Part shown: positions 38,246 to 43,389 of the stretch, one piece after another
How the letters are laid out: the number at the start of each line of letters is the position of its first letter
Numbering within the stretch: the stretch's first letter is position 1
Assembly: GCF_000236585.1 (NCBI RefSeq)
Contig: NC_017278.1
Coordinates: 682,001 to 746,000, forward strand
Source: Thermus sp. CCB_US3_UF1
GTDB taxonomy: Bacteria; Deinococcota; Deinococci; Deinococcales; Thermaceae
Reading direction: 5' to 3'
Length of the DNA stretch: 64,000 bases
The notes under the pieces: model-generated
Told to the model about the DNA's origin: nothing
Seen by the model: only the letters and a program-made list of their open reading frames with translations
The model's database searches: none
Position numbers and translations under genes: made by a program

Positions 38246-39472
38246 CTAGACCCTGCGGAAAAGCAGCACGGCGTTCTGCCCGCCAAAGGCGAAGGAGTTG
38301 GAAAGGGCGTAGTCCACCCGGGCCTCCCGGGGCTCGGGCACGAAGTCCAGGTCCAGCTCGGGGTCGGGGTCCTCCATGTTGATGGTGGGGGGGATGACCC
38401 CGTGGAAGAGGGCCTGGACCGTGGCGATGGCCTCAATCCCCCCCGCTGCCCCCAGGAGGTGGCCGGTCATGCTCTTGGTGCTGGAAACCATAAGCTTTTT
38501 GGCGTGCTCCCCGAAAACCGCCTTGATGGCCAGGACCTCCGCCCGGTCCCCCACGGGGGTGGAGGTGCCGTGGGCGTTGATGTAGCCCACCTGCTCCGGG
38601 CTCACCCCGGCGTCCTCGAGGGCGCGCCGCATGGCCAAGGCGGCCCCTTGGCCCTCGGGGTGGGGCTCGGTGATGTGGTGGGCGTCGGCGCTACGGCCAA
38701 AGCCGATGACCTCGGCGTAGATCCGGGCCCCCCGGCGCCTGGCGTGCTCGTACTCCTCCAGGACCAAGACCCCGGCCCCTTCCCCCATCACGAACCCATC
38801 CCGGGAGCGGGTGAAGGGGCGGCTGGCCTTCTCCGGCTCCTCGTTGCGGGTGGAAAGGGCCCGCATCACGGCGAAGGCCCCTATGGCCATGGGGGTGATG
38901 GCCGCTTCCGCCCCCCCGGCCAGGACGATGTCCGCCTCCCCCAGTTGGATCATGCGTAGGGCGCTGCCGATGGCGTCCGAGCCCGTGGCGCAGGCGGTGA
39001 CCACGGTGGAGGAAGGCCCCCTGAAGCCGTAGCGCATGGCGATGTGGGCCGAGGCCATGTTGGCGATCATCATGGGGATGAAGAAGGGGCTGATGCGGTT
39101 GGGACCCCGTTCCAGGAAGACCTTGCTCTGGGCCTCCCAGGTCTCCATCCCCCCGATCCCGGTGCCCACCAGGGTACCCACCCGCTCGGGGGGGAGTTTC
39201 TCCGGTTCCAGCCCCGCGTCTTGGAGGGCCAGCTCCGCGGCGATGAGGGCGTACTGGACAAAGCGGTCCAGGCGCCTTAGCTCCTTCTTGTCCAGGTAGT
39301 CCTCAGGGTTCACCCGCACCTCGGCGGCGATGCGCACCGGGAGGACCGAGGCGTCAAAGCGGGTGATGGGGCCCACCCCGCTCCTGCCTTCCAGCTGGGC
39401 CTTGTGGTAGGCCTCGGCCCCCACGCCGATGGGGGTTAGGGGGCCTAGGCCGGTGACCACCACGCGTCGCAT
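38246..39472 (-). CDS. fabF: 3-oxoacyl-ACP synthase II
   Basis: The elongating condensing enzyme of fatty acid synthesis. The 408-residue protein starts [18 protein letters not shown], with the catalytic cysteine in [17 protein letters not shown], the histidines in [15 protein letters not shown] and [17 protein letters not shown], and the C-terminal [15 protein letters not shown]. The ATG at 39472 is six bases after TATACT and lacks a ribosome binding site, so it has its own leaderless promoter. A very G+C-rich hairpin separates it from acpP. Confidence 0.97.
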
Positions 39473-39478
39473 GGGGGT

Positions 39479-39484
39479 AGTATA
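39479..39484 (-). promoter_or_regulatory. Leaderless -10 of fabF
   Basis: TATACT on the minus strand stands six bases before the fabF ATG. Confidence 0.6.
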
Positions 39485-40559: not shown

Positions 40560-41469
40560 CCGCCACCTCCAAGGCCCTGTTTAGGCTTTCCCGATCCGTT
40601 ACGCTGTGGGCCTCGGCCCCGGGAAGGGTGCGGGCCAAGAGGCCTTTAAGCACCTCCCCGCTGCCAAACTCCAGGAAGCGCCTGAGGCCCCGCCTTTCCA
40701 TGTCCTTCAGGATCTCCACCCAGCGCACGGGGGCGGTGATCTGCTCCAAAAGGAGGGCCCGGATCCGCTCGGGGTCCTCCTGGGGCTCGGCGGTGGCGTT
40801 GGCGTAGACGGGGAAGCGGGGGCGCCTCAGGGGGACCCGGGCCAACTCCGCCGCCAGCCGTTCCCGCGCTGGGGCCATGAGGGAGGAGTGGAAGGGGGCG
40901 GAGACGGGCAGGAAGACCACCCGGGCTCTAAGCCCCCTTAGCTTTTCCGCCGCCTTTTCCACCGCCTCCTTCCGCCCGGAGATCACCGTCTGCTCGGGGG
41001 CGTTGAGGTTGGCGATCTCCACCCCCTCGAGGTCCGAAAGGGCCTCCCGTATGGCCTCCAGGGGGAGTTTCAGGATGGCGGCCATGGCCCCTTGCCCGGG
41101 GGGAACCGCCTCCTGCATGTACCGCCCCCTAAGGCGCACCAGGCGGAGGGCGTCCTCTAGCTCCAGGGTGCCCGCGGCCACGTGGGCCGTCCACTCCCCC
41201 AGGGAGTGGCCGGCGGCCAGGAGGGGTTCCTTACCCCCCTGTTCCAGGAAGGCCCGGTAGGCGGCGTACCCCACCGCCAGGAGGGCGGGCTGCTGGTTTT
41301 CCGTGAGGGTGAGGGCCTCCTCAGGGCCCTCCCAAAGGAGCTTCAGAAGGCCGGGAAGGGCGGCTTCGGCCCGGTCCAGGACCTCCCGGGCCGCGGGGAA
41401 GGCCCGGTAGAGGTCCTGGCCCATCCCTACCCGCTGGGAGCCCTGGCCGGGGAAAAGGGCGGCGTACAT
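40552..41469 (-). CDS. fabD: Malonyl-CoA:ACP transacylase
   Basis: It loads malonate onto acyl carrier protein. The 305-residue protein starts [17 protein letters not shown], with the active-site serine in [16 protein letters not shown] and the histidine in [14 protein letters not shown]. Length is normal. The start overlaps the fabH stop by one base (TGATG), and the end overlaps fabG, so fabH-fabD-fabG are translationally coupled. Confidence 0.96.
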
Positions 41470-42437
41470 CAGGCCCCTCCCCAGGTGAGGACCGCCGCGG
41501 CCCAGGTGAGGCCGGCCCCGAAGGAGACCAGGAGGACGTGGTCCCCCTCCCGGATGCGCCCCCCGTCCACCGCCTCCTTGAGGGCCAGGGGGATGGAGGC
41601 GGTGGAGGTGTTGCCGTAGCGGTCCACGTTCACCACCACCCGTTCCCAGGGTAGGCCCAGCCGCTCCCGGGCGGCGTCAATGATGCGCAGGTTGGCCTGG
41701 TGGGGGATGAAGGCCTTGATGGCCTCGGGGGTGAGGCCGGCCTTCTCTATGGCCTCGAGGGTGGCGGTGTTCATCACCCGCACGGCAAACTTGAAGACCT
41801 CCCGTCCGTTCATGTAGAGGCGGTTGCGCATGGAGGTGCCGTCGGGAAGGCGGGGGGCCACGCAGGCGTGGTAGAGCTCCTTGCCCCCGGTGCCGTCCGC
41901 CCCCAGGACGAAGGAGCGGAAGCCGAAGCCCTCCCGCACCTTCCCCACCACCGCTGCCCCCCCGCCGTCCCCAAAGAGGACGGCCGTGGCCCGGTCATTC
42001 CAGTCCAGGATCTTGGAAAGGGCCTCGGCCCCCACCACCAGGACCTTCCGGGCCAGGCCCGCCTCCACCAGGGCGTGGGCCTGGGCCAGGCCGTAGAGCC
42101 AGCCAGGGCAGCCCGCCAGGAGGTCGTAGGCAAAGGCGGAAAGGCCGAAGCGGGCCTGGACCAAGGCGGCGGTGTCGGGGAAGAGGGCGTCCGGGGTGTT
42201 GGTGGCCACGATCACCCCGTCCACCCCCTCCAAAGCCCCCGGGTGGCGGGCGAGGAGGTCTTCCACGGCCCTAAAGGCCAGGTCCGAGGTGTACTCGTCC
42301 TCCGCGGCGATGCGTCTTTCCCGGATCCCGGTGCGGGTCACGATCCATTCGTCCGAGGTGTCCAGGTAGGCCTCGAACTCCTCGTTTTTCATGACCCTCG
42401 AGGGTGCGTAAGCCCCCAGGGCCAGGATGCCGCTCAT
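41469..42437 (-). CDS. fabH: 3-oxoacyl-ACP synthase III
   Basis: It starts fatty acid synthesis by condensing an acyl-CoA with malonyl-ACP. The 322-residue protein has EWIVTRTGIRERRIA, the catalytic cysteine in AYDLLAGCPGWLYGLA, the histidine in AFIPHQANLRIIDA and the asparagine in YGNTSTASIPLAL. Preference for branched starters, typical of Thermus lipids, cannot be read directly. The start overlaps a six-codon leaderless minicistron by ATGA, and a GGGAGG site lies inside that minicistron. Confidence 0.96.
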   Translation of the reverse strand: MSGILALGAYAPSRVMKNEEFEAYLDTSDEWIVTRTGIRERRIAAEDEYTSDLAFRAVEDLLARHPGALEGVDGVIVATNTPDALFPDTAALVQARFGLSAFAYDLLAGCPGWLYGLAQAHALVEAGLARKVLVVGAEALSKILDWNDRATAVLFGDGGGAAVVGKVREGFGFRSFVLGADGTGGKELYHACVAPRLPDGTSMRNRLYMNGREVFKFAVRVMNTATLEAIEKAGLTPEAIKAFIPHQANLRIIDAARERLGLPWERVVVNVDRYGNTSTASIPLALKEAVDGGRIREGDHVLLVSFGAGLTWAAAVLTWGGA

Positions 42438-42454
42438 GCCTGACCTCCCGTCAT
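42434..42454 (-). CDS. Six-codon leaderless minicistron coupled to fabH
   Basis: ATG at 42454 opens a frame encoding MTGGQA and ends in a TGA that overlaps the fabH ATG (ATGA). TATAGT stands seven bases before this ATG, the normal distance for a leaderless start. The Gly-Gly codons form the GGGAGG ribosome binding site of fabH. It may serve as a translational landing pad. There is no direct evidence that the peptide matters. Confidence 0.45.
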   Translation of the reverse strand: MTGGQA

Positions 42455-42461
42455 GGGCCTC

Positions 42462-42467
42462 ACTATA
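42462..42467 (-). promoter_or_regulatory. -10 of the fabH operon
   Basis: TATAGT on the minus strand, just after the rpmF terminator and seven bases before the minicistron ATG. Confidence 0.6.
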
Positions 42468-42479
42468 CCCGCCTGGAGG

Positions 42480-42507
42480 GAAAAAGATGAGGCCCCCTCA
42501 AGGGGCC
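42480..42507 (-). terminator. Terminator of rpmF
   Basis: On the minus strand GGCCCC and GGGGCC pair around a five-base loop (42491-42507), followed by TCATCTTTTT. Confidence 0.75.
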
Positions 42508-42527
42508 CCCGGGTGTCTTGACCGGGT

Positions 42528-42710
42528 CTAGACTTCCAGGACCTTGCGCCCGTCGTAGTAGCCGCACTCGGGGCAGACGGTGTGGGGAGGGCGCATCGCC
42601 TTGCACTCGGGGCAGGGGACCAGGGTCGGGGGGGTTAGGGCGTGGTGGCTCCTGCGGGCGTCGCGCCGCGCCTTAGAGGTCTTCTTCTTGGGTACCGGGT
42701 GCTTGGCCAT
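42528..42710 (-). CDS. rpmF: 50S ribosomal protein bL32
   Basis: A small protein of the large ribosomal subunit. The 60-residue product, starting [25 protein letters not shown], has the Thermus zinc-finger type CPECKAM...CPECGYY. I chose the ATG at 42710 because the family begins [10 protein letters not shown] and GGGAGG lies upstream. A leader of about 45 bases with a stable hairpin precedes it, and a terminator separates it from the fabH operon. Confidence 0.97.
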
Positions 42711-42772: not shown

Positions 42773-43309
42773 CTAAAGTTCGGAAAGGAGGTCCTTAAGG
42801 CCCAGCAAGGGATGGTGGACCTCCACCTGGTGGCCGCAGTCCTCCAGGTTGCGGTCCGCCCCGCACACCGGGCAAAGCCCCTGGCACCCTTCCTGGCACA
42901 AGACGGTGTAGGGCATCTCGGAAACGAAGGCCTCGGTGAGGAAAGGGAGGAGGTCCAGATCCGGCTCCCCGAAGGCGTAGTACTCCTCTTCCGCCTCCTC
43001 GTGGAAGACCACCTCCCCTAGGCCCTGCTGGTAGCGGAGCAGGTGCTGGAAGTGGGCGTGCACGTGGGTGGGGGTGGGTTTCAGGCAGCGGCGGCACTCC
43101 ATGAGGGCCCACCCCTCCACCTCCCCGGAGAGCCAGTACTCCTCCCCCCCCACCGAGGACACGGCCACCTGCCACCTGGCCTCCCCCTCCAGGGGGAAGC
43201 GTTCCTCCCCTACCTGGAAGGCCTCCCGCACCACCCCCGTGGCCCGGGCCGTTCCCCCTTCCTTCAAGAGGCGGGCTAGATTGATGCTGGCCACCTCGTG
43301 GTGTTCCAT
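42773..43309 (-). CDS. yceD: YceD/DUF177 protein
   Basis: The family is nearly always found before rpmF and has been linked to 23S rRNA or ribosome maturation, although its exact role is unsettled. The 178-residue protein has [14 protein letters not shown] and, near the C-terminus, [23 protein letters not shown], the conserved cysteine pairs of the family. TATACT lies seven bases before the ATG at 43309, with no ribosome binding site. rpmF follows with its own additional promoter. Confidence 0.9.
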
Positions 43310-43316
43310 CCTTACA

Positions 43317-43322
43317 AGTATA
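43317..43322 (-). promoter_or_regulatory. Leaderless -10 of yceD
   Basis: TATACT on the minus strand, seven bases before the ATG at 43309. Confidence 0.6.
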
Positions 43323-43389
43323 GCCCGCAAAGGGCCTTTTTCCTAGGGGTAAGGCATAAACTTCCCGGGCGGTGCATGGGCCTTTCTGC

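Follow-up and report, generated by a model that had tools for sequence, protein, structure and literature searches.

A conserved, putatively leaderless six-codon minicistron overlapping the fabH start in Thermus

The fabH locus of Thermus sp. CCB_US3_UF1 raises the question of why an ATG should lie just where transcription of the operon is predicted to begin, 17 nt ahead of the ATG of a gene that has a Shine-Dalgarno (SD) sequence of its own. The window analysed is a stretch of 64,000 nucleotides (NC_017278.1, positions 682,001 to 746,000); all features are given in window coordinates and lie on its minus strand, in the order rpmF, terminator, TATAGT-GAGGCCC-ATGACGGGAGGTCAGGC-ATGAGCGGC. The -10 box TATAGT (42462..42467) is followed by the 7-nt spacer GAGGCCC (42455..42461) and an open reading frame of six codons, ATG ACG GGA GGT CAG GCA TGA (MTGGQA, 42434..42454), which would be leaderless, as the position of the -10 box would put the transcription start at 42454, the first base of its ATG (42454-42452). 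The TGA shares four bases, ATGA (42434..42437), with the fabH ATG (42437-42435). The gene that starts there (41469..42437) encodes a 3-oxoacyl-ACP synthase III of 322 aa, a full-length ortholog of T. thermophilus FabH (PDB 1UB7) whose start agrees with that protein (alignment 1-322 to 1-322). The preliminary description had these elements and their coordinates right. It had also read the two glycine codons as doubling as the fabH SD; GGGAGG (42444..42449) does lie inside the minicistron, 6 nt ahead of the fabH ATG, but begins with the final G of ACG and continues as GGA GG. The upstream gene is rpmF (42528..42710; ribosomal protein L32, from the ORF translation), and a terminator scan places an intrinsic terminator at its 3' side (42483..42509; GGGGCCCCTTGAGGGGGCCTC then a T run), with a stem of nine pairs (42509-42489) followed by ATCTTTTTCC. 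A similar hairpin and T run stands between rpmF and fabH at most Thermus loci, and a sequence scan of the locus gave no sigma-70 type -35 match at the fabH promoter.

FabH was located in 27 Thermus genomes, all of which entered the motif comparison, and every one carries TATAGT-N7-ATGAC(G/A)GGAGG upstream of the gene, the -10 box being invariant. Substitutions were counted by Fitch parsimony on a tree of 26 genomes built from the fabH region and gap. There are no changes at any of the six bases of TATAGT, none in ATGAC and none in GGAGG; the third-codon base after ATGAC changed once, and the three bases that follow GGAGG changed 2, 1 and 6 times. Within the spacer the first three bases changed 4, 3 and 9 times and the GCCC beside the ATG 1, 1, 0 and 0 times, a conservation for which the minicistron model has no need. 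On the same tree, unconstrained upstream DNA (-25 to -17) accumulated 6-9 changes per site, about 7.5, and fabH third positions a mean of 2.6. The arrangement of -10 box and ATG is thus not due to chance. Nor does the SD explain the conservation of the ATG, because the three bases of the ATG lie outside it. In the leader of gap, used as a control with a TATANT box and an SD, an ATG occupies the equivalent position in only 3 of the 22 leaders that have the box. The preliminary description had made conservation in relatives a check on its reading, and loss of the frame and ATG a reason to abandon it; the ATG is present in 27/27 genomes, the frame and ATGA overlap are kept in 23/27, and the remaining four use the same ATG as the probable start of fabH itself.

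The spacing between box and ATG is that of a leaderless gene. The use of a -10 box directly ahead of leaderless genes is documented for the Deinococcus-Thermus phylum (PMC12340547, PMC3160421), and a survey of a 464-kb sample of this genome with 442 predicted genes found TANNNT boxes before start codons to peak at 6 nt (75) and 7 nt (46), against about 8 at each other spacing. Across the genome TATANT-N6-8-ATG occurs 75 times, compared with 3 for a reversed control, and nearly all of these sites open a long ORF directly; outside gene starts the pairing of -10 box and ATG is near chance level. The 7 nt at fabH fall within the leaderless peak, and in 27/27 Thermus genomes TATAGT-N7-ATG belongs to the class with TANNNT 6-7 nt before the start codon.

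Natural variants of the locus point the same way. In four of the 27 Thermus genomes (L017, L018, L024, L026) the loss of 2 nt has fused the mini-ORF in frame to fabH, with the junction sequences MTGGQAPGILALG, MTGGQALGILALG and MTGGQASGILALG. The old fabH ATG is gone from these genomes, and no start codon is found at a usable distance after the SD, except for one CTG in L018, so that in them fabH very probably starts at the ATG of the minicistron. The annotation of these four genes should accordingly begin at the fused ATG (MTGGQA...), since a later annotated start would cut off conserved residues. The fused genomes do not group together as a single clade, and parsimony gives three changes of state on a tree in which some nodes are weak. 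In a genome of a sister genus (G049) the order is TATAGT-ggtgccc-ATGAGCGGCATC, that is, the same promoter and spacing stand directly before fabH's own ATG, and fabH itself would be leaderless there. The difference may reflect a gain of 17 nt in Thermus or their loss in the sister genus. The genome-wide spacing peak, the fused fabH genes and the promoter arrangement of the sister genus together make the ATG at 42454 very probably a genuine leaderless start codon.

What is kept beyond the ATG is the length of the ORF and the way in which it ends. In each of the 23 unfused Thermus genomes it is six codons long and closes with ATGA, and codons 5-6 vary (MTGGQA, RA, PA, QV, RG, RP, RR, QT). Because positions 5 and 6 vary while length and ATGA are fixed, the MTGGQA-type peptide probably does not matter in itself, and selection appears to retain instead a place for ribosomes to load and the junction at ATGA. 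Codon 2 of fabH is AGC or AGT in 23/23 unfused genomes, as against 10 of the 225 other serine codons in the same 23 genes, and the corresponding codon in the fused genomes is CCA, CTG, CCG or TCG. This bias agrees with selection acting on the A with which the TGA ends, with the reservations that the sister genus also has AGC at fabH codon 2, yet has no minicistron, and that the fused-genome codons sit at the deletion itself.

The reading that we favour, and regard as moderately probable, is that a leaderless minicistron loads ribosomes and that termination at ATGA favours reinitiation on fabH, with the SD allowing direct initiation as well. Transcription of the operon would start at the A of the ATG at 42454, giving an mRNA that begins with AUG. 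Ribosomes would load on this 5'-terminal AUG, a step to which the fused fabH genes lend indirect support, and translate MTGGQA, and termination at the UGA would leave the fabH SD and AUG inside the ribosome footprint, from which reinitiation could follow; the SD would also permit initiation on fabH directly. The hand-over from minicistron to fabH is plausible, but a 17-nt leader with its SD would already be enough for ribosomes to start at the fabH AUG, and coupling cannot be assumed from the anatomy, because E. coli rhaB, which has an ATGA overlap, is nearly indifferent to its upstream AUG (PMC4965119). An SD-masking hairpin was considered as a reason for coupling and rejected: the SD pairs in part with early fabH codons, folding is no better than in shuffled sequences, and nothing special was found in the RNA structure near the SD that would have to be opened by translation of the minicistron (z = -0.24 against shuffles). 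The predicted structure around the SD differs among species.

The main rival to hand-over is that transcription begins at or close to 42454 and that the 5' AUG of the mRNA serves only for docking, for competition or for protection of the mRNA, with fabH translated from its SD. It owes this place to the mixed effects of AUG loss in E. coli, where removal of 5'-terminal AUGs raised downstream expression in some cases and lowered it in others, the effect at ptrB being independent of uORF translation (PMC4965119). Start codons 17 nt apart would also make ribosomes exclude each other. Docking has no need, however, of the fixed length, frame, ATGA and AGY second codon found in 23 genomes, although the codon-2 argument carries little weight given the AGC of the sister genus; we take this explanation to be unlikely, if appreciable. 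Somewhat improbable too is the view that the ATG goes unused in the 23 unfused species, the transcript having a short leader that carries an SD and keeps its opening bases for promoter escape or start-site choice. The conserved GCCC beside the ATG and the normal SD spacing would suit it, as would the C at -1 and -2 that is common in the leaderless genes of this genome too. It is at odds with the scarcity of an ATG at that place in the gap leaders (3/22), with the near-chance frequency of the -10/ATG pair outside gene starts, and with the service of the same ATG as fabH start in the fused species and the equal spacing in the sister genus.

The conserved block GCCCATGACGGGAGG could alternatively be an operator for a lipid regulator overlapping the start, as its imperfect dyad (CCCxTxAxGGG) and the extension of conservation to the GCCC 5' of the ATG might suggest. 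Among the genome matches listed, no other copy has fewer than two mismatches, and with up to three mismatches there are 100/99 copies against 119/137 in the reversed control, so it is not commoner than expected; with no second close site and a count not above control the operator reading was rejected as very improbable. An equally slim chance attaches to fabH being expressed mostly by read-through from rpmF, which would make the ATG internal and leave only the SD in use. Here rpmF does lie directly upstream, and a tight rpmF-fabH junction is kept in Marinithermus/Oceanithermus-like genomes; against this stand the intrinsic terminator between the two genes, its counterparts at most Thermus loci and the invariance of the -10 box.

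A leaderless minicistron coupled to a downstream gene is of a kind already known from mycobacteria and E. coli, and is rare in Thermus. The architecture predicted at fabH matches both the mycobacterial RTGA-coupled small ORFs and the E. coli 5'-terminal AUGs. The former have a leaderless RTG at the 5' end, 5-50 codons and an RTGA overlap (Shell et al. 2015, PMC4633059), and the predicted fabH minicistron resembles them in its short ORF, of six codons, and in its ATGA at the downstream start in 23/27 Thermus genomes; common to both is an architecture that is kept while the peptide varies. The mycobacterial ORFs are statistically enriched (23/220) and supported by transcription start site mapping and ribosome profiling (PMC4633059). 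The putative fabH minicistron differs from them in its six-codon ORF, its internal SD, its phylum and its genus-wide occurrence with fused variants.

In E. coli the likeness lies in a 5' AUG and an SD-led gene on one mRNA, with short uORFs (Beck et al. 2016, PMC4965119). There, 5'-terminal AUGs on SD mRNAs bind 70S ribosomes, rhaB has a 5'-terminal AUG uORF with an ATGA overlap, and loss of the AUG altered downstream expression by between -93% (ptrB) and +52% (mngR), with +4% at rhaB (PMC4965119). Those cases were picked from annotation and studied with reporters and toeprints, with mixed effects, while the evidence in Thermus is that of sequence comparison. The purpose of a 5'-terminal AUG on an SD mRNA is the point at issue, for which the E. 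coli effects are mixed and conservation was not asked; the fabH example is conserved throughout a genus at the head of a central metabolic operon, and its fused, unfused and absent natural variants can be compared side by side. The -10-motif leaderless genes of Deinococcus-Thermus share the -10 box 6-7 nt before the ATG and the leaderless mRNA (Zhong et al. 2025, PMC12340547; Zheng et al. 2011, PMC3160421), but in them it is the gene proper that is leaderless, where fabH has a minicistron instead; neither coupling nor short ORFs turned up in a term search of PMC12340547. Termination-reinitiation at ATGA overlaps likewise involves a stop/start and an SD as at fabH (PMC6728339; review PMC12548453), usually however between two full-length genes and not after an ORF of six codons. 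No description of a leaderless minicistron of the fabH kind in Thermus was found in the literature searched.

Within this genome the arrangement has few parallels. The 464-kb sample holds three distinct sites with coupled leaderless mini-ORFs at spacers of 6-8, a number not significantly above the approximately 1.8 expected, and among ATG minicistrons genome-wide only fabH combined frame, ATGA, long ORF and SD. A 27-codon ORF ending in ATGA ahead of gap (GAPDH) was considered as a second minicistron and set aside, as it is present here but its ATG is not conserved. A possible second case is a 618-aa transporter-like gene (G000:C2:1321081-1321129, L305), which is preceded by TACTCT-N6-GTG (GTG at 1321126) and 10 codons ending in ATGA. 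A second Thermus genome (G006, L318) shows the same plan at this gene, with TATTCT-N6-GTG opening an ORF that again has 10 codons and runs into ATGA but differs from the first. Of nine further genomes, eight carry a frame of about 300 codons or more whose end coincides with the corresponding ATGA or lies within 21 nt of it; the ninth (L317) has a 129-codon frame that shares the C-terminus.

These comparisons bear on how the minicistron arose. In Marinithermus/Oceanithermus-like genomes (the genus names are tentative) fabH follows at 1-2 nt from the rpmF stop and has a GGAGG; Thermus has instead a terminator and a separate promoter between the two genes, and the minicistron may stand in for rpmF as the lost upstream cistron. 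A tentative and rather doubtful generalisation is that, when a gene that used to be coupled to an upstream cistron, or to abut it closely, comes to head its own transcript, Thermus puts a leaderless minicistron with the same end point in that cistron's place. This would hold for fabH throughout the genus and in two genomes for the transporter-like gene, where a GTG mini-ORF of 10 codons would stand in for a gene of roughly 300 codons. Such minicistrons would form a bridge between SD-led and leaderless genes, a suggestion that comes from the in-frame fusions. In a further Thermaceae genome (G032, L197) TACTTT-N7-ATG opens a 23-codon ORF that ends in the fabH ATGA after GGGAGG (by eye), perhaps a mini-ORF of independent origin.

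Judged by eye, the fabH leaders of Meiothermus (L039-L044, L184-L201) have a conserved TATCTT promoter and, where the transcript is predicted to begin, a conserved inverted repeat, TGCCC...GGGCA; after it come the SD and a start codon that is usually TTG. The arms of the repeat in L201 have another sequence yet still pair. A GTG 7 nt after the TATCTT was considered as a conserved minicistron start and rejected, as frames and stops differ and the element looks, by eye, like a conserved 5' hairpin. Two neighbouring genes in the window, both on the minus strand, have leaderless-type promoters of their own. Inside the fab operon, fabF is preceded by TATACT-acccccATG (39470-39484). Upstream of rpmF, a DUF177/YceD-like gene has TATACT-tgtaagg-ATG (43307-43322), and it probably starts at the ATG at 43309 (178 aa) rather than at the TTG at 43330.
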